Source of the DNA: Vibrio tubiashii
GTDB taxonomy: Bacteria; Pseudomonadota; Gammaproteobacteria; Enterobacterales; Vibrionaceae
Direction of reading: 5' to 3'
Length of the DNA stretch: 64,000 bases
Assembly (NCBI RefSeq): GCF_028551255.1
Contig: NZ_CP117029.1
Coordinates: forward strand, 1,736,001 to 1,800,000
In this document: positions 51,025-64,000 of the stretch, in pieces
How the letters are laid out: every line of letters begins with the position of its first letter
How positions within the stretch are numbered: position 1 is the first letter of the stretch
Position numbers and translations under genes: made by a program
Notes under the pieces: model-generated
What the model was told of the DNA's origin: nothing
The model's input: the letters and a program-made list of their open reading frames with translations, nothing else
Database searches by the model: none

Positions 51025-51684
51025 ATGAAAATTCTTGTAGTGGAAGATGAACCGCGTCTTGGTGAACAAATTGTCGAAATTCTGGAACAAACCGGTTGGG
51101 TTCCTGAACTGTCTCAAGACGGTATCGATGCTCTGTACCGAGCGACTTCAGAAGAGTGGGATGCGATCGTGCTCGATCTAGGTCTCCCAAAACTAGACGG
51201 TCTGACGGTACTCAAAGGCATTCGAGACGAGAATATTAACACACCAGTCGTGATCCTTAGCGCTCGTGACACGTTAACTCAACGTGTAGAAGGCTTAAAC
51301 GCAGGCGCAGACGACTACCTAACCAAGCCATTTGAAATGGTTGAGTTAATTGCCCGTATCCGAGCTCAACTTCGACGCGCTTCTGGTAATGCCTCTCCTG
51401 TTATGCAAGTCGGTAATTTAAGTCTTGATACCCGCACTTCAAAAGTGATGTGGCAAGGCCAAGCGATTAGTTTGACAGCCTTAGAATACAAGGTTGTCGC
51501 TTACTTTATGCATAACCCTGAGAAGGTCATTTCGCGCACAGAATTGGTCGAGCATATTTACAAACAGGATTTTGACCGTGATTCAAACACCATTGAAGTG
51601 TTTATTGGTCGAATTCGCAAAAAGATTGCACCAAAAGTAATCAAAACAGTGAGAGGCTTGGGGTACCAGCTTAATGCCGAATAA
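51025..51684 (+). CDS. OmpR/PhoP-family response regulator
   Basis: A 219-residue protein. The receiver domain (1-115) has acidic E7/D8, phosphorylation site D51 (IVLDLGLPKLDG) and the lysine of YLTKPFE. The C-terminal winged helix (about 130-215) contains LEYKVVAYFMHNPEKVISRTEL and ends TVRGLGYQLNAE. The kinase gene overlaps its end by 11 bases. Targets cannot be read from sequence. Confidence 0.93.
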   Translation: MKILVVEDEPRLGEQIVEILEQTGWVPELSQDGIDALYRATSEEWDAIVLDLGLPKLDGLTVLKGIRDENINTPVVILSARDTLTQRVEGLNAGADDYLTKPFEMVELIARIRAQLRRASGNASPVMQVGNLSLDTRTSKVMWQGQAISLTALEYKVVAYFMHNPEKVISRTELVEHIYKQDFDRDSNTIEVFIGRIRKKIAPKVIKTVRGLGYQLNAE

Positions 51685-53014
51685 CAAACGCTCACTACTT
51701 AAAAGACTGAGTTTAAAAAGCCGATTAGTTCTAGCGGCTGTGGTTTGGCTAACAGCTATGGTAATAGCGGTTGGCGTGAGTGTGCCTAACCAAGTCTTCA
51801 ACTATATGGCTGGCGACGCAAAGTCTCAGTTATCCATTTATATGGACGAGATTTCCGCATCGATAGAAGCCGATGAATCAGGCAACATCACTCTCGCCTC
51901 CAACCTTTCCGACCCACGCTTTAATCGTCCTTATAGCGGGTTATATTGGTCAGCGAAAACCGAGACAGACTTGCTTCGCTCACGCTCTTTGTGGGATCAA
52001 CGAATTGAAAGCAAAAAGAACGGTAAAGAATATGTTGGCGCTCGCGACGAAAAACTCATCTATATAAAAACCAAACTCTATTACCCAGATTATGATGGGC
52101 CCATTGAAGTTCTGATTGGTATTGATGAACAACCCATTGAAGATACTGTACGCGATTTAATGAGTCAGCTGTGGATTATTCTCGCTCTACTCTACTTCGG
52201 TGTTTTGGCAGTAATCATGTTGCAAGTTCAGTGGTCGCTTAGTCCACTCAACAAGATGCAAAAAGAGTTGAACCAGCTTCGCTCCGGAGATAAAACAAGC
52301 CTAGATGAAGAGTATCCAAAAGAGGTGGCTCCGGTCGTTTCCGATCTCAATGCACTGGTTTTCCATTACCAAGAATTGCTTGAACGCGCTCGCCATCATG
52401 CAGGCAACCTTTCTCACGCGCTAAAAACCCCCTTGTCAGTACTAAGAAATGAAATTGGTTCGCTCGACAAAGAGACACGAGATTATCTCTTGCCTCCGGT
52501 TCATCAAATCCAAAGCCAAATTGATTACCACTTAGGTCGCGCGCGAATGGCAGGCTCTAAGAATATTCTCTCTGTTCGTGCTAATCCCGCAGAGCGCGTT
52601 GATGCAATTTCGATGGCGTTTGACAAAGTATACGCCGAGCGAGGCGTCGCTTTGATTAATGAGCTTGACTCAGACATCGAAGTTGCCGTCGACCCAACCG
52701 ATCTAGACGAAATGGTAGGTAACTTGCTAGAGAATGCCTACAAGTGGTCTTGCAATATTATTCGTGTCCACTCTGAAGAAAATGAGCCGGGTACCATTGA
52801 GATTATTATCGAAGATGACGGCCCTGGCATTGACGATGAAGATATTCAGCAAGCACTTAAACGTGGTGTGAGATTAGACGAAACTAAGCCGGGAACAGGT
52901 CTTGGACTGAATATCGTTAACGAAATGGCACACAGTTATCGCGGTAAGCTTGCGCTATCAAGAAGCTCTATGGGTGGATTAAAAGCTGTCCTTGCGTTTA
53001 ATACATCCAACTAA
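51674..53014 (+). CDS. PhoQ-like sensor histidine kinase
   Basis: A 446-residue inner-membrane kinase. TM1 is about 18-38, the periplasmic sensor about 40-165, TM2 about 166-187, then a HAMP-like linker. The phosphorylated histidine is H248 in NLSHALKTPL, the PhoQ-type variant. ATP-binding boxes are NLLENAYKWS (N), DDGPGI (G1) and GTGLGLNIV (G2). The acidic periplasmic patches would fit cation or peptide sensing as in PhoQ, by analogy only. It is coupled to the regulator gene by overlap. Confidence 0.92.
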   Translation: MPNNKRSLLKRLSLKSRLVLAAVVWLTAMVIAVGVSVPNQVFNYMAGDAKSQLSIYMDEISASIEADESGNITLASNLSDPRFNRPYSGLYWSAKTETDLLRSRSLWDQRIESKKNGKEYVGARDEKLIYIKTKLYYPDYDGPIEVLIGIDEQPIEDTVRDLMSQLWIILALLYFGVLAVIMLQVQWSLSPLNKMQKELNQLRSGDKTSLDEEYPKEVAPVVSDLNALVFHYQELLERARHHAGNLSHALKTPLSVLRNEIGSLDKETRDYLLPPVHQIQSQIDYHLGRARMAGSKNILSVRANPAERVDAISMAFDKVYAERGVALINELDSDIEVAVDPTDLDEMVGNLLENAYKWSCNIIRVHSEENEPGTIEIIIEDDGPGIDDEDIQQALKRGVRLDETKPGTGLGLNIVNEMAHSYRGKLALSRSSMGGLKAVLAFNTSN

Positions 53015-53163: not shown

Positions 53164-53931
53164 ATGAAAAATGCCCCTTTTACCTTATCGGCCTTATCAT
53201 CGATTTTAAGCCTGCTGCTGTTACCCTCTCTTTCTTTTGCACAAGACGAGGAGAGCTCCAACGTTGAAGAGTCGCCTTTCACCGCGCAAACCAAACTTGG
53301 CTTTATCTATACAGAAAACACCAGTTCTTCTCTTTCTGTAAATTCAGCTTTGTACCTCAATTATCAGCAAGAGTCTTGGCTACATAAGGCGTCATTTGAA
53401 AGCTACTATACTGACGCCGACAATGCTGATGATGGAGCAAATCGCTATACGGTCAATGCGGGATCAACCTATGACTTTGCAGAGAAAACCTTCGTACGTG
53501 GTGCTGGCCGATTTGAAAATGACTTGTATGGTACTTACCGTAAGCAGTGGATATTAATGAGCGGTATTGGTGTCTATTTGGTTAACAATGACATCGTAAA
53601 AACCTCTATCTCTCTTGGTCCTGGTTATCGTATCACGCAAAGACAGCCGTTCGATTCTGAATGCCCAGACCAAATGAATTATGAAGTGATTGCTTCTTCT
53701 ACCCTCGATAGCTCTATTGTTTTCTCGGAGAGGCTTTCAATGGGCGCAACCTTTGACGTGGCACACGGTGAAGAGAACACCCATTACAACACTAAGGCAT
53801 ACATCAAGAATACCTTAATGGCGAACCTGTCTTTAGTTTTCGACGTTGAGTACATCTACAACACAACCGTTGCTGAAGACCAATCACCGGATGAAATCTA
53901 CAGTACGATGAGCTTAAGCTATGATTTTTAA
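53164..53931 (+). CDS. DUF481 outer-membrane protein (YdiY-like)
   Basis: A 255-residue protein with signal peptide (SALSSILSLLLLPSLSFAQ). Alternating beta-strands with aromatic ends and a C-terminal SYDF indicate an outer-membrane barrel of the DUF481 family (TAQTKLGFIYTENTSSSLSVNS; GSTYDFAEKTFVRGAGRFENDLYG, split by turns). Function unknown. It is monocistronic. Confidence 0.82.
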   Translation: MKNAPFTLSALSSILSLLLLPSLSFAQDEESSNVEESPFTAQTKLGFIYTENTSSSLSVNSALYLNYQQESWLHKASFESYYTDADNADDGANRYTVNAGSTYDFAEKTFVRGAGRFENDLYGTYRKQWILMSGIGVYLVNNDIVKTSISLGPGYRITQRQPFDSECPDQMNYEVIASSTLDSSIVFSERLSMGATFDVAHGEENTHYNTKAYIKNTLMANLSLVFDVEYIYNTTVAEDQSPDEIYSTMSLSYDF

Positions 53932-53951: not shown

Positions 53952-53975
53952 AAAAACAGCGCCACTAGGGCGCTG
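53952..53975 (-). terminator. Terminator of the RND/ToxR-like operon
   Basis: On the minus strand CAGCGCC pairs with GGCGCTG around 5 bases and TTTTT follows, 18 bases past the stop at 53993. Confidence 0.85.
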
Positions 53976-53992: not shown

Positions 53993-54445
53993 TTATGACT
54001 CCAAATGTAAAGCCACTTTCTTGCCGACTAATATTGAGCCTTTATCACCAATATCGATAAGGTTCATTAGGCCATCAAACGAACCCGGTCTAACAAACAG
54101 TTGCTCAATCACCCCTCCTTTCGCCCCCTCTAGGTCAAGTGGGGTGTGCGTATCATGCATGAACAATATTCCGTCTGAGTCCATGCTGTACTGCCCTTTG
54201 CCTGAAAAACCAACTTGGCTTTGCGGTAACATTGCAAACACGCCATAAGTGTTGTTTTCATTTAATGTCAGTTCAAGTCTCATTGGCAAAGACGTAGAGA
54301 AGACAGTTGATGGCTCTTCAATATGAATGTGTGCCACCGTGCTACTCGTAAAATGCCTGTTTGGCTGATCACCAGTATTAAAGGCAATACCGACTCCAAC
54401 GCCTAACCCCAATATCGCTGCGCCAAGGATAATTTCTTTATTCAC
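53993..54445 (-). CDS. ToxS/VtrC-like small membrane partner, copy A
   Basis: A 150-residue protein starting at GTG 54445, which lies inside the end of the ToxR-like gene (shared GTGAATAA, 8 bases). One N-terminal membrane segment (about 4-23) is followed by a periplasmic domain of about 125 residues with no cysteine. It is homologous to copy B at 59581 (GFSGKGQYSMDSDGILFM versus GFNSAGEYHFTRYGLSLM; both end with an ILV hydrophobic strand). In VtrA/VtrC and ToxR/ToxS such proteins bind and stabilise the periplasmic part of the regulator; a lipid or bile ligand is possible but inferred. Confidence 0.7.
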   Translation of the reverse strand: MNKEIILGAAILGLGVGVGIAFNTGDQPNRHFTSSTVAHIHIEEPSTVFSTSLPMRLELTLNENNTYGVFAMLPQSQVGFSGKGQYSMDSDGILFMHDTHTPLDLEGAKGGVIEQLFVRPGSFDGLMNLIDIGDKGSILVGKKVALHLES

Positions 54446-55130
54446 AATTCACTACCCCACTTTGATTGCTGAAACTGACAGAACGACCTTGCTCATCAAG
54501 CATTAAGCTAAGCTCATCAAACTGATACACCGTTGGATTCTGGTAATAGATTCTTTCGCCATTGTTTGTTGGCTCATACCAGCACTGGTTATAAGTTTTA
54601 GCAACATACTGGCTAGAGATCAGTAGCTCTTTAGCTAGCATCGTCCCAAAGAAGCCAATCACAATCGCAGCAGCAAACACCGAGGCGGCTTTATAGCTGA
54701 TTGACGAACCCACTTTTGGTGGGGAAAGCTTGCGCTGCTTATCAGTCTGCGGTGTTTTCTTCTGTTCGGTTGCCAATGGTTCATTCTGAGAAACTTTAAC
54801 TTCAGAGAGGCATGTTATCTTTTTAACCGTACCGATAAATTCATAGCCCACGCCACGCTCTGTGCGGATGATTTCACCAGAGCGATCTTCTAAGCCGCGA
54901 CGACAACTGGATATGGAGTGCAGCAAACTGCTGCTCTCCACGACAATGCCACGTTTATGCCATACTTCTTCCATAAGCTCATGTTTACTCAATACTTTTC
55001 CTTTATGAGAGAACATGTAGGTCAACAATGAAATCTCATTGATACCAATTGGGTGACGGATCTGGCTCTTAAGGCTTTGAATATAGCCGCCAGTGTCGTC
55101 AAGTATGTGAGTTCCGTTGATTAGCAGCAT
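54438..55130 (-). CDS. ToxR-like membrane-bound transcriptional regulator, copy A
   Basis: A 230-residue protein. A cytoplasmic OmpR/ToxR-type winged helix (about 5-100, ending ERGVGYEFIG) is followed by a polar linker, one membrane helix (about 147-165) and a short periplasmic domain with C183 and C229. It is transcribed 5 bases after the RND gene and overlaps its ToxS-like partner. Such one-component regulators bind DNA while embedded in the membrane. The two periplasmic cysteines are 46 residues apart, as in copy B, and could form a disulphide like that of ToxR. The efflux operon is its likely target. Confidence 0.82.
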   Translation of the reverse strand: MLLINGTHILDDTGGYIQSLKSQIRHPIGINEISLLTYMFSHKGKVLSKHELMEEVWHKRGIVVESSSLLHSISSCRRGLEDRSGEIIRTERGVGYEFIGTVKKITCLSEVKVSQNEPLATEQKKTPQTDKQRKLSPPKVGSSISYKAASVFAAAIVIGFFGTMLAKELLISSQYVAKTYNQCWYEPTNNGERIYYQNPTVYQFDELSLMLDEQGRSVSFSNQSGVVNCE

Positions 55131-55135
55131 CGTCT

Positions 55136-58100
55136 TTACCCCTCTGTAGCTAGCTCAAAGCGTTTCGATTTTTCAGTCACCTTAGCGAACGCAACATACG
55201 CCATAGGCACAATGAATAACGAGAAGAAAGTCCCCACCGTTAAGCCACCAACCAAAACTAAGCCAATGTTGGTACGTCCTAATGAACCTGGGCCATCCGC
55301 CAGTGCAAGTGGCAATGAACCAATAATCATCGTTAGTGAAGTCATTAGAATTGGACGTAAGCGAGATTTCGCACTCATAAGAGCCGATGTCATCGCACTG
55401 TAGCCCTCTTTACGCTTAATGTTGGCAAACTCGACAATCAAAATACCGTGCTTAGTGACTAGACCTACCAAGGTCAACAATCCAATCTTTGAATACAGGT
55501 TTAAGCTATGGCCAAACACACTTAATGTCAGTACTGCACCAACCAAACATAGCGGTACGGTAATTAAGATGATTAGCGGGTCGACAAAGCTTTCAAACTG
55601 CGCAGCCAGAATCAAGAAGATGAACACCAGTGCCAAGCCAAATAGGATCTGCATTCCTGCTTCAGATTCATTGAGCTCTTTAACCACACCGTTGTATTCG
55701 TAGTTTTGGCCCACTTTCAGCAGTTTTGGTAACTCGGCATCTATGTAAGCCTGAATATCACTTGCACTGAAACCTGGCATTAGATCAGCTGTAATTTCTG
55801 CTGCATCCTTACCACCATAAGTCTTAATGTTTGATTCCGCTGTCACTGGCTCAATCGAAACAAACTGAGACAATGGTAGTCTTTGACCCGAGTCAGAGCT
55901 TACGTACAGCTTATCTAGAACTTTGAAATCACCTAATGCCTGACGGTTTACCTGCACCTGAATTGGGTATGTAAAACCATCTTCTGCCTGTAAATCTGCT
56001 GCTTTTACGGAACCAAGGAAGGTAGAAATAGCGCTAGTGACATTGCCGTAGTCTACTCCTGACAGCACAATTGCATTACGATCAATGGAGAGGTCAAAAC
56101 GTAGCTGATCTCGGTGTGTCGAGTTGTCTACATTCGAAAGACCTTCATAGTTTTCCAGCAGCTCTACTACTTTCTCTGCGGTATCAGATAACGCATCTAA
56201 ATCACGGTTAACTGTGGTCAATTCAAGAACGAGATTGCTTGCTACATCTAGGTTATCCGCAGAGCGCACAGAGAAAGAAGTTGAATAGGCTGAAACCGTT
56301 TCACCCGCTTTAGCCATCATCTCTTGAATGATCTCATCAGCACTTTGGTCACGCTCTTCCCAAGATTTAAGTAGAACATGGTTGGTTGGCGCTGACTCGA
56401 TATAAGCTAGGTTTGCTTCAATCGCATCACTGTCTTTGAACACATTGTTTATCTGTTCGGCATTTTCCAGATCATAGAGACGACCTGCGCCCGCTGGACC
56501 ATGAGACGAGACTTCAATAAAGCCTGTATCTTCCGTCGGCAAAAGAACCTTTGGCATAAACCATACTGCAACACCTGATAAAACAATCAGAGCAGCCGTG
56601 CCACCCAGCACCATACGCGGACGTTTGAACCAAGCATTGAGATACAGCATGTACTTTTCAGTCATCGCATCTAACTTGGTTTCAACCCACTGGAACCACT
56701 TTGGTGACGTTGTCACCGATTTGAGCATGTAAGCGCTCATCATCGGAGATAACGTCAGCGCAACAAAGCCTGAGATGATCACAGATGCAGCAAGCGTATA
56801 AGCAAACTGCCTGAACAGATCTGCAGTTAAGCCAGACATTAAACCAATTGGAAGATAAACCACCGCAAGTGTTAACGTCATTGCGATAACTGGGAATACG
56901 ATCTCTTTACAGCTCTTCAGCGCTGCTTGAAACGGGGATAATCCCTCTTCAATGTGACGGTAACAGTTTTCTACAACGACAATCGCATCATCGACAACCA
57001 ACCCGATCGCAAGGATGATCGCGAGAATGGTCAATACATTAATACTGAAACCAAGCATTGCCATAACCGCAAATACACCAATCACACATACAGGAATGGT
57101 AATCAGGGGAATCGCCGCTACACGCAGCGAGCCAAGGAAGAGCACGACAATTGCGGAAACCAATACAATGGCTTCAACTAAAGTCATAAAACCTTGATCG
57201 ATCGCTTCTTCGATAAAGTCGGCCTGATTGTAGACCATCTTCATCTCGATACCTTCTGGTATCTGCATCGTTTCCATTGCCGCTTTAACACGATTAGCCA
57301 CCGTCACTGGGTTTTCAGTTTTAAGCGGTAATACTTGCAGAGACATCGCCATGTCGCCATCGACGTTAAGCATACTTGGCTCTAGGCTTTCTTCACCCAT
57401 TTGGATGTCAGCAATGTCGCTAACACGAATGATTTTGCCATTATCAACACGCAGTACAAGATCGCGAACATCTTCAATGGTAGTAACTTGATTGACTGGG
57501 TTAATGGAGAAGTCACGCACTTCGCCTTTAATCGTACCAGCAGTAAAAGTTGCGTTATAGGTGCTTAGCGTTCCAACCACATCGGATGCACTGACATTCA
57601 GTGCCGCCATGCGCTCTGGCTGCAACCACACTCGAATTGCGCGGCTCGAACCACCATAAGGCCCCCAGACTCCGCCAACGCCTAGAACATTCTTGAACTG
57701 TGGCGAGATTTGCTGATTGATGAAGTCAAACATCTCTTGTTTGTCCATCGAGCCATTATTGACAAACGTAATGATGTTACTTGGCATTGAAGTATCAGAT
57801 GAGTCATCTGTCACCGTTGGTTTGTCTGTCATCGCAGGCGGAAAATCAGAGATTCCATCTACCTTGCTACGCAGGTTGTTCATCAAACTCGCGTATTCAA
57901 CGTCACTAATGCCGTCTTCGAATTGAATCTTTAAAGAACAACTTCCCTCTTGGCAGTCGGTTGTCATCGTTTTGATTTTGTCTAACCCAGTAACAGCAGT
58001 AATAAGTTCTTCCGCTACGTTTTGCGACATGAACTCAGCACTCGCTCCTGTGATTGAAGCGCTCACCGTGACAGAGGCCGTTTGACGCTCAGGAAAGTAC

Positions 58101-58204
58101 TGAATAGCCAGTTTCTGGTAAGAGACGATACCAAGTAACACAATCGCGATACTTAGCACCGAAGCAAGTACCGGATGCTTGATACATATTTCAGGCAGCT
58201 TCAT
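55136..58204 (-). CDS. RND multidrug efflux pump, inner-membrane subunit
   Basis: A 1022-residue HAE-type RND transporter with twelve helices and two large periplasmic loops. TM1 starts near residue 13 (VLASVLSIAIVLLGIVSY); the proton-relay aspartates are in GLVVDDAIVVVEN near 400; the C-terminal block has GLLTLVGLVTKHGILIVEFAN. It overlaps the fusion-protein gene by 14 bases. No outer-membrane channel gene is in the cluster, so it presumably uses a general TolC. Likely substrates (bile salts, detergents, drugs) are by analogy with Vibrio Vex pumps. Confidence 0.93.
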   Translation of the reverse strand: MKLPEICIKHPVLASVLSIAIVLLGIVSYQKLAIQYFPERQTASVTVSASITGASAEFMSQNVAEELITAVTGLDKIKTMTTDCQEGSCSLKIQFEDGISDVEYASLMNNLRSKVDGISDFPPAMTDKPTVTDDSSDTSMPSNIITFVNNGSMDKQEMFDFINQQISPQFKNVLGVGGVWGPYGGSSRAIRVWLQPERMAALNVSASDVVGTLSTYNATFTAGTIKGEVRDFSINPVNQVTTIEDVRDLVLRVDNGKIIRVSDIADIQMGEESLEPSMLNVDGDMAMSLQVLPLKTENPVTVANRVKAAMETMQIPEGIEMKMVYNQADFIEEAIDQGFMTLVEAIVLVSAIVVLFLGSLRVAAIPLITIPVCVIGVFAVMAMLGFSINVLTILAIILAIGLVVDDAIVVVENCYRHIEEGLSPFQAALKSCKEIVFPVIAMTLTLAVVYLPIGLMSGLTADLFRQFAYTLAASVIISGFVALTLSPMMSAYMLKSVTTSPKWFQWVETKLDAMTEKYMLYLNAWFKRPRMVLGGTAALIVLSGVAVWFMPKVLLPTEDTGFIEVSSHGPAGAGRLYDLENAEQINNVFKDSDAIEANLAYIESAPTNHVLLKSWEERDQSADEIIQEMMAKAGETVSAYSTSFSVRSADNLDVASNLVLELTTVNRDLDALSDTAEKVVELLENYEGLSNVDNSTHRDQLRFDLSIDRNAIVLSGVDYGNVTSAISTFLGSVKAADLQAEDGFTYPIQVQVNRQALGDFKVLDKLYVSSDSGQRLPLSQFVSIEPVTAESNIKTYGGKDAAEITADLMPGFSASDIQAYIDAELPKLLKVGQNYEYNGVVKELNESEAGMQILFGLALVFIFLILAAQFESFVDPLIILITVPLCLVGAVLTLSVFGHSLNLYSKIGLLTLVGLVTKHGILIVEFANIKRKEGYSAMTSALMSAKSRLRPILMTSLTMIIGSLPLALADGPGSLGRTNIGLVLVGGLTVGTFFSLFIVPMAYVAFAKVTEKSKRFELATEG

Positions 58205-59381
58205 TCGTTACCTCCGTCGACTTGTCCGCTTTAGGCTCGGCGATTTTGCTTGCTTCTTTGTTAGGCGTTTCAGCAACTGGCTTTACCTGCTGTTCTTTCT
58301 TCTCAGGCTGAGCCGGTAAGGTTCTCGCTGGCAAAGTCACGGGAGACTTGGTTTGCTGAACAGCCACTTGAACATCTTGATGTAGATTTTGACGACCAGT
58401 GACAACAACACGCTCTCCAGCATTTAATCCAGACACGATCACAACGTAGCCGTCATTGGTGTTTTGCCCTAGCTCAACTGAACGCTTGGTTGCTTTGTTG
58501 TCTTCAATAACCCAAACAAATCGCTGATCACCTGACGTATCTACTGCAGTTTGAGAGACCACCACATCATCTGACGCCTCTCCGACACTTTGCGATACCT
58601 TAGCGAACATTCCTGGTACCAGTTTGTTATCACTGTTATCTAAGTGAGCATGGACCTCGACTCGACCTGAGTTCTCATCAACTAAAGGCGCAATATAGTC
58701 GACCGTACCGGTAAACTCTGTTTCACCATAAGCATCCACTTTTACCGACACTTGCTGACCAAGTTGAGCTTTGCCGACCTCTGCCTGAGAAATTGAGTAG
58801 TGCACTTCTACCGGATCAAGCTTGATAAGGCTAACCAAAGCTGTCGCAGCTTCAACGCGGCTTCCTACTGAATGGGTAAAGTTAGTGAGTTGCCCGTCAA
58901 AGGGTGCAACAAGTTGGTAGTTTTGTAGGTCAGTTTTCTTTTGACTGAAATCCGCTTTTGCCAAACTTGCTTGCTGCTTTAGCTCTTCAACATCTTGAGC
59001 TGACATTGAGTCTGGTTGTTTCTTTAATAAAGCTAAAACACGAGCAAGTTTTGATTCAGCGAGCGCCAACGAGCTTTCTGCTTTGTCTAATTCAGCTTTC
59101 GCTTGCGAGTCATCAAGTTGAGCAATGAGCTCCCCTTTCTTAACCACATCGCCGTCATTGAAGTTGAGTTGCTTTAATTTTTCGCCAGCACTAAATGTTA
59201 ATGCTGCGGAGTCTGTCGCTTTCAGCTTACCGACTTCTTCAATACTAGAAGCGGTCATTTGTTGCTTCGCGATCTCGATGGTAACAGGGACACTTTCCAT
59301 AGTCTCTGCAAAAGCAGTTGAACCGATAATAGTGGTGCCAATACAGAAAATAGACAGGGATAAAGTCTTAGTATTTTTCAT
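58191..59381 (-). CDS. RND efflux periplasmic adaptor (membrane fusion protein)
   Basis: A 396-residue protein with signal peptide (MKNTKTLSLSIFCIGTTIIG, then STAFA) and no lipobox cysteine. The lipoyl-like halves flank a helical hairpin (about 105-165, AELDKAESSLALAESKLARVLALLKKQ), followed by beta-barrel and membrane-proximal domains. The C-terminal 60 residues are Pro/Lys/Glu-rich. It is first in the pump operon; its promoter must lie in 59382-59524, just downstream of the copy B regulator pair. Confidence 0.92.
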   Translation of the reverse strand: MKNTKTLSLSIFCIGTTIIGSTAFAETMESVPVTIEIAKQQMTASSIEEVGKLKATDSAALTFSAGEKLKQLNFNDGDVVKKGELIAQLDDSQAKAELDKAESSLALAESKLARVLALLKKQPDSMSAQDVEELKQQASLAKADFSQKKTDLQNYQLVAPFDGQLTNFTHSVGSRVEAATALVSLIKLDPVEVHYSISQAEVGKAQLGQQVSVKVDAYGETEFTGTVDYIAPLVDENSGRVEVHAHLDNSDNKLVPGMFAKVSQSVGEASDDVVVSQTAVDTSGDQRFVWVIEDNKATKRSVELGQNTNDGYVVIVSGLNAGERVVVTGRQNLHQDVQVAVQQTKSPVTLPARTLPAQPEKKEQQVKPVAETPNKEASKIAEPKADKSTEVTNEAA

Positions 59382-59524
59382 AGTGCGACTCTGATTGATG
59401 GAAGTTGTCGCTTGTTATACCTAAGATTTTTCTGACAAAGTTATCGTTTTGTCAGCCAGAGAATGATTAATCCTTAACGAACCTTAAGAAAAATCAAACC
59501 TTTGATTTTAAATGATTTATATAC

Positions 59525-59558
59525 AAAAAAGCCGCAGCACCTTGCAAAGTACTACGGC
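59525..59558 (-). terminator. Terminator between regulator pair B and the efflux operon
   Basis: On the minus strand GCCGTAGTAC pairs imperfectly with GTGCTGCGGC around TTTGCAAG, and TTTTTT follows. It lies 23 bases past the stop at 59581, so pair B and the pump operon are probably separate transcripts. Confidence 0.8.
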
Positions 59559-59580
59559 GATTTAAAACTGATTAATGACG

Positions 59581-60030
59581 TTATTCAGCGTACTTTGAAA
59601 ACAAGTATGAGTACCTAGGAGCCACCAAAATAACTTGGTCCTGCGAATAGGGAATCATTTTAAGCTCTTCTAACGAATGCATGCCACGCTGTGAAAACAT
59701 CGTTTCCAATAGAGATACTTTTTGCGAAGAAGGCAGGACTTGTTCCGATGTGGTTGGCATCAGTGAAAGCCCATAGCGGGTAAAGTGGTATTCTCCCGCC
59801 GAGTTAAAGCCGACATCTCCCTCCGTCAAAAAGAACATCTCGTACTGACCAGATCGTTTGAGATTAATTGCCGACTTCATCTTAATGATGTGAGTATTGT
59901 CATCCGATTTAACCAGTAGACTGGTATCACTTTGCAACGCTTGAGCGATAGTTGGCGAGTTTACTACACCAGCCAAAACTCCAATAAATAAGCCTGAAGC
60001 AATACTGGCCGCTAGAATTTTCTTATTCAC
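59581..60030 (-). CDS. ToxS/VtrC-like small membrane partner, copy B
   Basis: A 149-residue protein from GTG 60030, sharing GTGAATAA with the end of its ToxR-like partner, exactly as copy A does. One N-terminal membrane helix (about 4-25) and a periplasmic domain. It is clearly homologous to copy A but diverged. The probable role is chaperone or ligand-binding partner of the adjacent regulator. Confidence 0.7.
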   Translation of the reverse strand: MNKKILAASIASGLFIGVLAGVVNSPTIAQALQSDTSLLVKSDDNTHIIKMKSAINLKRSGQYEMFFLTEGDVGFNSAGEYHFTRYGLSLMPTTSEQVLPSSQKVSLLETMFSQRGMHSLEELKMIPYSQDQVILVAPRYSYLFSKYAE

Positions 60031-60673
60031 AATCCACCTCCACTTCAGAAGGAATAAAGCTGATTGAATTCCCCTCTTGATCGACCAAGATGGTTTGGTT
60101 TTCAGAAGTAAAAGCGCGAACGTTGTTCATCACTAGTGACTTGTCACTACCAGGTTGAGGGATAACGCAGCCAACATATCGGCTCTCTTGATAATCAGCC
60201 TCTACCCATGGCGTGCTCAACCAACTATAAGCCGTAAAACCGACTGCCGCACTAAGTGTAAAGGCAATGAGGTAAGCCGTATTATTGCGTTTAAGCTGCT
60301 TTGGTTCGCTGGGGCTCGACTCTCGGGTAATAAGCGGAGAATCGATTTCTTGCGGTTGGTAGCTTTCTACATGGCCATTAAACTGATAGCCGACACCGCG
60401 GACTGTGGTAATAATTTCACCACCGCGGTCTTCTAATGCTTTACGACAAGTCGATACCGCATGGAGTAAGCTACTTTCCTCTACCACCACGCCTTTCTTG
60501 TACCAAATTTCATCGAGAAGCTGAGCCTTTGAGAGTGGCTTATGAGGATGCTCAATCATAAACTGCAACAGAGCAACTTCGTTGCTGCCAAGAGCGACTT
60601 TGATACCACTGTCTCGCTCTTCTAACGTCCCCGTTAAAGCGTTAAGAATGTATTTATTGTTTATCAACAACAT
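60023..60673 (-). CDS. ToxR-like membrane-bound transcriptional regulator, copy B
   Basis: A 216-residue protein paralogous to copy A: the same opening (MLLIN, then ILN), the same winged-helix landmarks (SSLLHAVSTCRKALEDRGGEI, VRGVGYQFNG), a membrane helix at about 132-151 and a periplasmic domain with C169 and C215, again 46 residues apart and again ending Cys-Glu. It lies upstream of the efflux operon on the same strand, in the position expected of a local activator. Confidence 0.83.
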   Translation of the reverse strand: MLLINNKYILNALTGTLEERDSGIKVALGSNEVALLQFMIEHPHKPLSKAQLLDEIWYKKGVVVEESSLLHAVSTCRKALEDRGGEIITTVRGVGYQFNGHVESYQPQEIDSPLITRESSPSEPKQLKRNNTAYLIAFTLSAAVGFTAYSWLSTPWVEADYQESRYVGCVIPQPGSDKSLVMNNVRAFTSENQTILVDQEGNSISFIPSEVEVDCE

Positions 60674-60765: not shown

Positions 60766-61497
60766 TTAATTTAACTCGGTGATTTCGTAGTTGGAATAAA
60801 CCTTGTTAACTTTGTCCCATGGGATCGGGTCTAAAATCACGTTGGCTTGCTCTGCTCTATCAGCAATTCTCGCGCTATAGTTAGCTTTGTAAATTTCGGC
60901 ATTGTTACCACGCGAGTCTGCTTCAAGCTCAGCATCTGGCATTAGTTCTGTTACATATTTATACTCGCCACAGCCATCTAACCAAACCTTAGTGTTTCCA
61001 TTAGGTAAGAATCCAAAAACAATGTCACTTTGATAGCAGTCTAGGATCGCGCCATCCCATGTGGTCATTTTCCGTTTTGTAACCATCGCTGCTTTGACCT
61101 CTTTAGTTAAGTCAAATTTAGTCACAAAGAATCTTGTATTGCTTATCGATGCCCAATATACAAAGACGCTGTCTGGCAGTGTTTGAGTCCCAGCCACTTG
61201 CGGTAAAACCCCTACTGCCGAACCCAACGGAATTCCAAAACCATTATAATTTGGTAACTTATCTAAAACTCTATCTAGCTCCGTCCTGCGAATAAAGTGG
61301 AGATCGTTGTGAACAAATGAGGTCCAGTCAGCATCATTGTTAACACCATAAGCTTTCGTCACCTTTGCTGGATAAAGTGAAGACATGGCGTAACCAATGC
61401 GCCATTTAGGCATATCTTCAGGAACACTAGGTACTTTTGCGAATGCGTTGGAAACGACCGGAACTACCAATAGTAGTGTGGCTATTAATTGCTTCAT
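60766..61497 (-). CDS. DUF2931 protein, presumed immunity partner of the lipase effector
   Basis: A 243-residue protein from ATG 61497, which has GGAAAG upstream and follows the effector stop by one base; the longer frame adds a basic leader that hides the signal. The signal peptide (MKQLIATLLLVVPVVSNAFA) has no lipobox cysteine, so it should be a soluble periplasmic protein rather than the lipoprotein often seen. WRIGYAMSSLYPAKV and VFVYWASI are DUF2931 landmarks. Genes of this family sit next to T6SS phospholipase effectors, where they are thought to neutralise the toxin in the periplasm; the link here is by position. Confidence 0.8.
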   Translation of the reverse strand: MKQLIATLLLVVPVVSNAFAKVPSVPEDMPKWRIGYAMSSLYPAKVTKAYGVNNDADWTSFVHNDLHFIRRTELDRVLDKLPNYNGFGIPLGSAVGVLPQVAGTQTLPDSVFVYWASISNTRFFVTKFDLTKEVKAAMVTKRKMTTWDGAILDCYQSDIVFGFLPNGNTKVWLDGCGEYKYVTELMPDAELEADSRGNNAEIYKANYSARIADRAEQANVILDPIPWDKVNKVYSNYEITELN

Positions 61498-61498
61498 C

Positions 61499-63571
61499 TT
61501 AGCTTTCCTTTTTGCATTCAAATATTTCTCGCACAAACGTATCACCATGCTCGTGTGGTTTGTTCGCGATAGAACAATCTGAAGAATGGTGAATTAAGTT
61601 CGCTTTCATAAGGCTAACCATGATAGAGCTATCTTTCACATCTTCAATATTACTAACATCAAGCTCGCTTAAAAGCTCTCCACTTTTGGCTGCAGATAAC
61701 GCTTTTTTGCAAAACTTTCCAAAGTCATAATTACCAACGGTTTGCGGTACTGAGTAATAGCTATCCCCTTCTTCATTCCAAACCCCGCCTTGTTTATCAT
61801 CTAGGGGGACTTTCGCATGTTCAGCAAACCCAAACATAACGCGAAGATACAATCGTGATAAGTCCCCTTCTACCACGCGTTTTTTCTGCAGAGTACCTTC
61901 CAAATAGGTTTGATCATTACGTCCTTGATTAACCGTTCTATAGCCGACAATATAATCATCTTTATTCCAACCTAAAGACACTTCGTGGTCGATGACTTCT
62001 TTGAATTTTTCATCTAGCGACGCCTTCACCTTATCGTAGTTCCAACGTCCAACATCTCGCCTTAATCTTTTAACTGGTTTTACTTCTAGGAGCGGTAACA
62101 AATATCTATCCTGTGTCTGACCACCGACAGTGTCATAAGCTATCGTAGACTGGTAGCCACCTCCAAGATCAGAGTGCGCTCCGGGGACGACATATTCTTT
62201 GAACTTACAGCTTGTATTTACCTTGTTTAGGCAAAAGTTATATCTATATTCGGTCTTCTTATGCGCTGTAAGATGGACGACGTTTTCAATGCGACTCGGC
62301 TCTAACCAAAGCCTTACGTCACCGTTATCATCGTTATGAGGAGTAAAATCGCCGCTAAATGGGTCAAAAATAGCAGCAACAGTGTCAAAAACACCAACAA
62401 ACTTTATACAACACGATTCGTTGCTATCCCAATCATAACCCGATTTCAAAGCAATTGAATTGGACTTACATGCCTCAGTAAACTTAGTTGCGAATAGGCC
62501 TTTTTCACCATCTATTATGACATTTGTAAAATGCCTTGCCGCTGCTGCACCTCTACTAAACCCAAAGACATCGAGTTCCAATTTGGATATACCATCAGCC
62601 ATAGCTTCCACATAAGCACGAGATTGACGAATCTGATTGAGGTTATCGCACAGTGCACTTATTCCAGTCTCAACTTTTGCTACTACACCATAATCACCTG
62701 TTCCGAATGCTTGCCCTGGAACTACGGACTCATCTGCTGGCTTAGTATTATCAACGTCATTGCCTGTACCAATACCTGTAACGTATTCGGGATGAACAAA
62801 TGTTCGGCTTTCTTCCAAGTATTCGTCCCTCAAATACAAATCATGTAGTTTCTGGATGTTCGTCAGCTCGTTGGCAGCACTTCCATCGACTGCAAAATCT
62901 TCTTCCCAAAAGAAATGAAACTTCTCATCTTCTGGAAACTTGAACATATCGCTAGGCCACTCGGTCACAGCCTTATGTTTATTAGCCGCATGTTTGTTGC
63001 GCCATTTCGTATAATACTTATCTAACTGGCTCTTACCCCATTGAGCGCTGTAAGTATTATTGCCTGTCCCATCAAAAAACATCCCTACGCGTAGAGTAAT
63101 AAAATTGAAGCCTTTTACTTTAAGTACATAACTCTTATCTGCGACGAGTTTAAATGTATCGGCTTTTCCTTGTTGGTGGCGTGTAGGTAATGCTTGATCT
63201 TCGGTTAGTTCAGTTAGATCCCCTGCTGTAACCTCAAAGAAAGTGGGTTTGGAATTTTTATGTCCTTGATATTCATTGGCAAAGTCTTTAGTAGGATTAC
63301 CTTCAGAGTTTGGCTTGCGCTCGTTCCCTTGAGATTCGATTAACCAAGACTTACTGTCTAGCTTCAGCGTGACTTCACCTGGACAGATATCTTCTACAAG
63401 GATTGGGGAATCACCCAAAGTAATGGGGTACTCATTGCAAGCTCCATCAATGAGAACACCACTAACGCCTTGGAACGGTTTATTAAATTCATCCCTTACT
63501 TGTACTTCAATCCAGTGTGTTTTCTTCTCACATGGAGTGCAATAAGGGCTAGCTCCGGTGGCGCTGCTCAT
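61499..63571 (-). CDS. Tle1-family (DUF2235) T6SS phospholipase effector
   Basis: A 690-residue protein from ATG 63571 (the DUF4123-like gene's TGA overlaps it as ATGA). An N-terminal domain (about 1-80, starting ASPYCTPCEKKTHWIEVQV) resembles a loading domain of Vibrio T6SS effectors. The DUF2235 hydrolase core has GMFFDGTGNN (about 163-172), the nucleophile elbow GFSRG (Ser339), FVGVFDTV with the likely acid, and GAHSDLGGGY with the histidine, the full Tle1 triad set. Such effectors hydrolyse phospholipids in rival cells. It is probably carried by a VgrG encoded just outside the right edge. Confidence 0.85.
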   Translation of the reverse strand: MSSATGASPYCTPCEKKTHWIEVQVRDEFNKPFQGVSGVLIDGACNEYPITLGDSPILVEDICPGEVTLKLDSKSWLIESQGNERKPNSEGNPTKDFANEYQGHKNSKPTFFEVTAGDLTELTEDQALPTRHQQGKADTFKLVADKSYVLKVKGFNFITLRVGMFFDGTGNNTYSAQWGKSQLDKYYTKWRNKHAANKHKAVTEWPSDMFKFPEDEKFHFFWEEDFAVDGSAANELTNIQKLHDLYLRDEYLEESRTFVHPEYVTGIGTGNDVDNTKPADESVVPGQAFGTGDYGVVAKVETGISALCDNLNQIRQSRAYVEAMADGISKLELDVFGFSRGAAAARHFTNVIIDGEKGLFATKFTEACKSNSIALKSGYDWDSNESCCIKFVGVFDTVAAIFDPFSGDFTPHNDDNGDVRLWLEPSRIENVVHLTAHKKTEYRYNFCLNKVNTSCKFKEYVVPGAHSDLGGGYQSTIAYDTVGGQTQDRYLLPLLEVKPVKRLRRDVGRWNYDKVKASLDEKFKEVIDHEVSLGWNKDDYIVGYRTVNQGRNDQTYLEGTLQKKRVVEGDLSRLYLRVMFGFAEHAKVPLDDKQGGVWNEEGDSYYSVPQTVGNYDFGKFCKKALSAAKSGELLSELDVSNIEDVKDSSIMVSLMKANLIHHSSDCSIANKPHEHGDTFVREIFECKKES

Positions 63572-64000
63572 ACCCAACTCTCCTTAATGGCTTCTAGCTC
63601 TTTTAGTTCTTCAAATGTTAAGTGGAAAGGAATAGAAAACTCTGAAATGTGAGTACCTGTAATTTTGGCCAGTTCAACCATTGCACCGTACTCTAACTTT
63701 TCAATTTTAAAGCCAACATCTATCCCTTTTTGTAGTGCTCCGACTAGGACGACTGATGGCGTATCTAGCTTTTCCATTAGTTGTGGAAACAGCTCCCACC
63801 ATCTTCTTTCTATCGCATGGGCATGAGCTTTAATGTTGTATAGCTCAGCTAGATGATGAGGCTGTATTTTCCACCAAGCTTCGCTTTGTGGCTTAAAGTC
63901 TGGTTTAGGTGTATTTGAAAACACTCTAATTTCATCGTCAAAAAAGGCAATTTCACTGATATTTCCCATAAAACTTGCCAACTCTCCCTCGTCCATAGCT
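63568..64000 (-). CDS. DUF4123-like T6SS adaptor, C-terminal part (5' end outside window)
   Basis: The frame is open from 63568 through the window edge, so the gene is cut at its 5' end. About 143 residues are visible and resemble the C-terminal part of DUF4123 adaptors (ASFMGNISEIAFFDDEIRVF near the visible start, then a helical tail). These adaptors load effectors onto VgrG. The TGA overlaps the effector ATG (ATGA), which supports the assignment; the match itself is weak, so it is tentative. Confidence 0.55.
   Translation of the reverse strand, partial: AMDEGELASFMGNISEIAFFDDEIRVFSNTPKPDFKPQSEAWWKIQPHHLAELYNIKAHAHAIERRWWELFPQLMEKLDTPSVVLVGALQKGIDVGFKIEKLEYGAMVELAKITGTHISEFSIPFHLTFEELKELEAIKESWV

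Follow-up and report, generated by a model that had tools for sequence, protein, structure and literature searches.

We analyzed a window of 64,000 nucleotides from Vibrio tubiashii (contig NZ_CP117029.1, positions 1,736,001 to 1,800,000), focusing on a resistance-nodulation-division (RND) efflux operon that lies between two gene pairs, each encoding a ToxR-like regulator and a partner protein. An initial annotation had placed these six genes on the minus strand at 53993..60673. All six open reading frames are found there, confirming that the RND operon is bracketed by two sensor pairs. In order of transcription, the locus reads:

60023..60673, minus strand: regulator A, 216 residues, with an N-terminal winged helix of the ToxR/OmpR type, one predicted membrane helix and a periplasmic tail of about 50 residues that holds Cys169 and Cys215
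59581..60030, minus strand: partner A, 149 residues, whose GTG start overlaps the last Cys codon of regulator A; a predicted membrane helix (residues 3-23) and a predicted eight-stranded, lipocalin-like barrel
59525..59558, minus strand: intrinsic terminator 3' of partner A, with a 12-pair stem and a T run
59414..59506, minus strand: conserved promoter region of the pump operon, with ATCAA-N4-TTGAT (59506-59493), CTGACAAA..C..TAACTTTG (59455-59436) and a -10-like TATAAC (59419-59414), the hexamers being assigned by eye
58191..59381, minus strand: periplasmic adaptor (membrane fusion protein, MFP) of the RND pump
55136..58204, minus strand: RND inner-membrane transporter (ACR_tran, HAE1 type)
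54438..55130, minus strand: regulator B, 230 residues, starting 5 bp past the RND stop
53993..54445, minus strand: partner B, 150 residues, whose GTG start overlaps the last Cys codon of regulator B

The genes are tightly packed: the adaptor gene shares 14 bases with the pump gene, each regulator gene shares 8 with that of its partner, and a gap of 5 separates the pump from regulator B. The sole long gap, 199 bases, falls between partner A and the adaptor. Pfam finds Trans_reg_C in both regulators, ACR_tran in the pump (789.6 bits; cut-off 28) and HlyD-type domains in the adaptor, while neither partner matches any Pfam family over cut-off. The adaptor belongs to the RND_mfp family TIGR01730 (222.9 bits; cut-off 94.9), and the pump scores 842.5 bits against NF033617, under the 1250 cut-off of that family. 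By these family matches, the operon encodes a putative HAE1-type RND efflux pump with an RND_mfp adaptor. There is no outer-membrane channel gene among the six.

We searched 227 Vibrio genomes for this arrangement, scoring 8 to 13 candidates per genome, with a cut-off of E 1e-50 for the adaptor (8 candidates per genome). An adaptor at this level occurs in 48 genomes. In 14 it is a close copy (69-98% identity), and all 14 have the order A-MFP-RND-B, with both regulators flanking the adaptor and pump; the idea that the pairs are chance neighbors, which the initial annotation had named as its refutation, is not borne out. All six frames are open in 12 of these bracket genomes. The frames of regulator A and the RND pump are split in G145, and in G132 regulator B is 162 codons long and no partner B was found. 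V. bivalvicida and V. europaeus are among the named matches that hold the bracket, and the public records that name the partner call it a hypothetical or uncharacterized protein. A kinase like that of the window's two-component system (51025-53014) adjoins the bracket in 13 of the 14 genomes. The G132 cassette is on a different contig from that kinase and keeps the order A-MFP-RND-regulator B. Because the G132 copy lies elsewhere and its host falls outside the clade of A/B genomes in a helicase-plus-kinase tree, the cassette has probably moved at least once. We conclude that the bracket is more than chance and that its conservation makes it probably a real control circuit for the pump.

The two pairs are related throughout their length. 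Regulators A and B share 35% identity over the full length (E 2e-43), and the partners share 22% over 121 columns (E 6e-6). A tree of 54 regulators, including those of the window, separates the A and B sequences into two clades of 19 rows each, with supports of 100/99 and 100/98. Each clade contains pump-bearing and pump-free genomes, so the A/B duplication predates the split of the species. The tree came with a tool warning that long branches meet; it leaves out regulator A of G145, regulator B of G132 and the rows of G198, G031 and G128, and keeps 12 of 28 single-pair genomes. These comparisons uphold the earlier proposal of a duplication and indicate that the A and B pairs are paralogues that separated earlier than their host species.

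We then asked which class of receptor the pairs represent, using models of the A pair and alignments A1 and A2, which contain 50 partner sequences (of 70 collected) and 53 regulator sequences (of 75), window included. Regulator A is predicted to form a helix at residues 126-152 followed by strands at 162-206, and alignment extends this design of a single membrane helix and a short periplasmic domain to regulator B. Structure matches of regulator A span residues 1-102 and not the periplasmic tail, with ToxR the best match for the winged helix. Cys169 and Cys215 are invariant in all 53 aligned regulators and may form a disulfide bond. Fifty of the 53 regulator genes end in TGTGA, any of A, G or T, and then TAA or TAG, with the GTG of the partner overlapping the Cys codon; GTG is the start in 49 of the 50 aligned partners. 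The partner A model (predicted local distance difference test score 80.1) retrieves ToxS and VtrC chains at Foldseek ranks 1-7. As for the claim that the partners share an N-terminal helix and a similar fold, the model bears out helix and barrel for partner A, and partner B probably has the same helix-plus-barrel design by homology only.

Sequence comparison alone is indecisive about ToxS. The Pfam ToxS family (PF17323) does not match partner A or B at E 1, a partner profile aligns to ToxS with E 0.0072 over 106 columns but a probability of 5%, and its best hit among solved-structure sequences reaches only E 5.8. A ToxS gene is present in all 19 genomes of the genus searched, in two pieces in G009. 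Taken together, the models support placing both pairs in the co-component superfamily of ToxR/ToxS and VtrA/VtrC, the A pair by fold, for which a structure search was run, and the B pair by homology, in agreement with the kinship first suggested. Neither pair appears to be ToxR/ToxS proper, given the lack of a PF17323 match, or VtrA/VtrC proper, given the two invariant cysteines.

The pairs differ in how they are likely to be transcribed. The hairpin after partner A has a folding energy of -19.1 kcal/mol (z -5.0), and similar hairpins are visible by eye in the other aligned pump-bearing sequences. From this hairpin to the adaptor, conserved blocks run through 13 aligned pump-bearing sequences (the window and 12 genomes). 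At the other end of the operon, in the window as in 13 of the 14 bracket genomes, the RND stop and the start of regulator B are -1, 3 or 5 bases apart; in G145, with its split RND frame, the last RND piece overlaps regulator B by 10. The junction is so tight that a promoter for B only would need to sit within the pump gene. Regulator B very probably belongs to the pump operon, and pair A to a separate unit. The bracket stands as the initial annotation drew it, with pairs on both sides of the pump, but an asymmetry between them had been missed: A is a separate, terminator-ended unit and B lies downstream of the pump promoter region. A promoter scan gave one hit in this region, pairing CTGACA with AAAAAT rather than TATAAC, and promoter-like sites were fewer than in shuffled sequence (4 versus 11.6). 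The window has just two copies of the pattern TTAAG-N5..7-TTAAGG (0.12 expected), one ahead of the pump and one ahead of regulator A; we do not claim it as a shared operator, as it was devised post hoc and a whole-region comparison is unsupportive.

Five relatives provide natural deletions of the pump. In genomes G242, G157, G120, G033 and G149, the four sensor genes (regulator A, partner A, regulator B, partner B) follow one another beside the same kinase, and no adaptor reaches E 1e-50. In these genomes, the sequence that separates partner A from regulator B shows homology to the pump promoter region (all 20 comparisons, with the window and three other pump-bearing genomes, gave z between 9.7 and 20.7), and thus the promoter region of the pump stands directly before B. 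Four of the five appear by eye to have lost the terminator hairpin. In the helicase-plus-kinase tree, 18 A/B rows (window included, G034 missing) form one clade with 100/100 support, and a single clade of the 13 pump-bearing rows is rejected (p-AU 0.0019). G034 and G132 are not pump rows of this tree: the former lacks a kinase row, and the latter is grouped as "other" because its cassette lies elsewhere. Since the pump-bearing rows are not one clade, loss of the pump is simpler than gain, and we conclude that the pump was probably lost in the five relatives; one loss and two losses are not separable (p-AU 0.178). A gain after the duplication would be allowed by the regulator B part of the regulator tree and by a tree of the kinase alone, and was set aside because the helicase-plus-kinase tree rejects one pump clade.

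The sensor genes appear to be maintained in these genomes. Ratios of nonsynonymous to synonymous substitution rates (dN/dS) are 0.10 to 0.24 for the pump-free sensor genes of G157/G120 and 0.08 to 0.13 for three other pump-free gene comparisons, the other five being saturated, and 0.03 to 0.14 for the sensor genes in four pump-bearing pairs. These ratios suggest that purifying selection acts on all four sensor genes even where the pump is missing, and some relaxation may have followed its loss.

A wider family links these receptors to lipases. In 29 of the 227 genomes, the adaptor is 57-62% identical and the locus has a second, lipase-type layout; in 26 of these, there is one related pair, oriented divergently from a set of genes that encode a lipase (mostly 720-780 residues), FadL, the adaptor and the RND pump. 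The single pair is damaged in G198 and G094, and G094, G217, G019 and G178 have broken frames in lipase, FadL or RND genes. At the G094 locus (L105), the lipase and the single pair's partner are broken up by two open reading frames of 306 residues, one of them a DDE transposase. The lipase of locus L096 scores 203 bits against the VolA/Pla-1 family, under the 384-bit cut-off, so we call it VolA/Pla-1-like and not VolA; the next gene belongs to the FadL family. Pair, lipase and FadL also occur in G126 and G156, at loci that lack the pump. A regulator profile run across 296 genomes of 13 genera finds members in 50 genomes of 2 genera, including three genomes of one genus outside Vibrio. All three (L172-L174) again have the pair facing genes for a VolA/Pla-1-like lipase and FadL; no pump was found in the 13 kb read. 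We also tried to name the pump as a Vme pump of V. parahaemolyticus: 24 reverse-transcription PCR primers published for the pump genes in PMC3831635 have no match longer than 16 bases in 10 of the 29 lipase-type loci, a result that does not exclude Vme identity.

At E 1e-80, the lipase is found in 39 of the 227 genomes, namely 29 with the second layout or its pump-free form and 10 of the 14 bracket genomes (G001, G079, G100, G092, G093, G145, G021, G034, G202 and G203; L175-L184). In these 10, the volA-like lipase and FadL genes lie together, away from the bracket, with no regulator of this family beside them. None of the five pump-free A/B genomes has the lipase at this cut-off (10/14 versus 0/5, one-sided Fisher p 0.011, ignoring shared descent). 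The distant volA-like/fadL operon is a candidate target of pairs A and B. In V. cholerae, VolA releases fatty acids from external lipids and FadL imports them, according to the accessible parts of PMC12208996 and PMC11323476. Because of the lipocalin-like partner and the lipase-FadL context, we infer that pairs of this family sense lipid-like amphiphiles. A third pair of the same family occurs at L064, L065 and L066 (in G202, G092 and G021; at L066 only the regulator was found), near genes that by eye resemble secDF and a periplasmic binding protein.

How might two such pairs serve one pump? The majority residues of the A and B recognition helices are identical at 14 of 18 positions, compared with 55 of 104 across the whole winged helix. 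Among partner positions fixed differently in A and B, 7 of 12 fall at 111-123, adjoining a helix at 107-113; the ToxS model of Kinch et al. has a helix-containing loop lying over the presumed lipid site. Similar recognition helices and partner differences near a lid would fit two inputs acting on one type of DNA site, and are suggestive only.

We favor, with some reserve, a model in which the two paralogous co-component pairs control the RND operon in series. Pair A, on its own terminator-ended transcript, would always be present and be made first. Its periplasmic heterodimer would bind a hydrophobic amphiphile, such as a fatty acid, a lysolipid or a bile-type detergent, and the membrane-tethered regulator A would then act on the promoter between partner A and the adaptor gene. 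Since the resulting transcript would carry adaptor, pump, regulator B and partner B, induction of the pump would also yield a second sensor, whose regulator has a DNA-reading helix like that of A and whose partner differs from partner A mostly near the presumed pocket lid. Pair B would feed back on the pump promoter, with either sign, and on targets elsewhere. The sequence itself shows the gene order, the paralogy, the fold family, the tight RND-regulator B junction and the conserved promoter region, retained before B where the pump is missing. Control of the pump by either pair, binding of A and B to its promoter, the sign of the feedback and the class of ligand are inferred from these features. 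A broader history is possible but more doubtful: the pairs may be a Vibrionaceae branch of co-component receptors for exogenous lipids that arose next to a VolA/Pla-1-like lipase and FadL, sense the products of these, and recruited an RND pump against toxic amphiphiles. Doubled in the lineage of the window, A would read one amphiphile and fire the pump, and B, made only with the pump, would read another and decide whether efflux continues.

Several observations weigh against the series model. Five genomes retain both pairs without the pump, so the pairs outlive it; since both are kept at dN/dS of 0.08 to 0.24 (7 comparisons), they must have further targets or regulate each other. The initial proposal of two sensors on one pump is plausible, with B directly behind the pump gene and similar recognition helices, but not the whole story. 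No such pair adjoins the five remoter adaptors (40-53% identity), and none was found beside the second-layout pump of G086, G190 and G212. The region upstream of regulator A bears no clear likeness to the pump promoter (in 2 of 13 sequences fewer than 5 of 200 shuffles score as well, and in the remaining 11 the number is 16 to 172), and the region upstream of volA-fadL in bracket genomes is unlike it (in 9 genomes, 7 to 128 of 200 plain shuffles do as well). These comparisons therefore turned up no operator shared by the regions of the pump, regulator A and volA-fadL. Finally, the clustering of partner differences at 111-123 is weak, as this stretch is conserved generally and also holds 2 of the 12 positions common to A and B.

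The alternative that fares best, although we give it a minority chance, makes B a brake. Produced with the pump, B would shut the operon, either as a competitor of A at the same sites or through mixed heterodimers, yielding a pulse or a set point. The apparent common operon, the similar recognition helices and the homology of both regulators and partners would all suit a brake. Several known relatives are instead activators (MarT, GrvA and VtrA; PMC9214523), and V. parahaemolyticus VtrB is autoactivated through read-through of its own target operon (PMC10971746, accessible part). It is unlikely, we think, that the pairs are lipid-scavenging or host-surface regulators with distant regulons and that the pump is a passenger or minor target that settled between them. 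Both the persistence of the pairs without the pump, under purifying selection in the computable comparisons, and the skewed distribution of volA-like/fadL speak for such regulons. A passenger would not be expected in the same slot in 14 of 14 genomes, with B at most 5 bp behind in 13 and overlapping in the other, or to keep its place in the G132 cassette, which lies elsewhere in the genome. Least probable is that A activates only B or itself and that another regulator runs the pump, such as true ToxRS, for which bracket genomes G001 and G013 have a separate ToxS gene, or the neighboring two-component system, whose kinase accompanies 13 of 14 brackets but stays where the pump is gone and is not near the bracket of G132.

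Compared with the co-component superfamily described by Kinch et al. (2022, PMC9214523), the bracket is a new arrangement of a known receptor class. As in that superfamily, a membrane-tethered winged-helix regulator is paired with a lipocalin-like partner whose gene often overlaps its own, and a conserved Cys near the regulator C terminus overlaps the partner start. Neighboring pairs are also known there, namely Salmonella STM0341/0342 and STM0344/0345, whereas here two pairs flank an RND pump and one apparently lies within the pump operon. Published partners tend to start with ATG and not GTG, and VtrA has no disulfide and serves a type III secretion system. Neither "efflux" nor "RND" occurs in the main text of PMC9214523. 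ToxR and ToxS genes do not overlap (PMC9214523), in contrast to both pairs here, and V. cholerae ToxR responds through its periplasmic domain to failing RND efflux (PMC5773229, accessible part). ToxS is nevertheless the best structural match of partner A.

VtrB, which is not known to have a partner, offers a precedent for B. Like B, it is a ToxR-family regulator transcribed from the operon that it controls, but it lies behind an intrinsic terminator, whereas B is at most 5 bp from the pump gene (PMC10971746, accessible part). Other RND systems of V. cholerae and V. parahaemolyticus also have a local regulator beside the pump (vexR, breR, and VP0040 before vmeC). VexR and BreR are of the TetR type, and we know of none of the three being a membrane receptor. 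VP0040 is given as a putative TetR-family regulator in the accessible part of PMC3831635. We found no description of an RND pump flanked by co-component pairs in the literature searched, which was mostly surveyed at listing level and covered subscription journals thinly. The arrangement is new for this receptor class, and its A/B asymmetry and natural pump deletions make it testable. To our knowledge, ligands are known for only a few ToxR-like co-component receptors. The genome context offers a candidate class: products of an outer-membrane lipase, imported by FadL and exported by an RND pump. Pump-free relatives that keep the pump promoter region and both receptors serve as natural experiments. 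The finding points to membrane receptors, beside soluble repressors, as local controllers of RND efflux, and bears on why some ToxR-like receptors occur as neighboring pairs.

Two further features lie downstream of partner B:

53957..53975, plus strand: terminator-like hairpin between partner B and the convergent DUF481 gene, a weak call (7 terminator-like sites found versus 5.6 expected)
53164..53931, plus strand: DUF481 protein, the convergent neighbor

Many second-layout loci likewise have a DUF481 gene that ends next to the RND pump, and none was seen in five bracket loci (L048, L049, L056, L058 and L063); a functional link between DUF481 and the pump is possible. Directly ahead of regulator A, the minus strand encodes a Tle1-like type VI secretion phospholipase (61499-63577; PF09994, 47.5 bits) and then a DUF2931 protein (60766-61548), which we take to be a possible effector-immunity pair. 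Relatives have different genes in this slot, a VTT/LssY_C protein in G001 and a CTP transferase with others in G150, so it may be an insertion hotspot.
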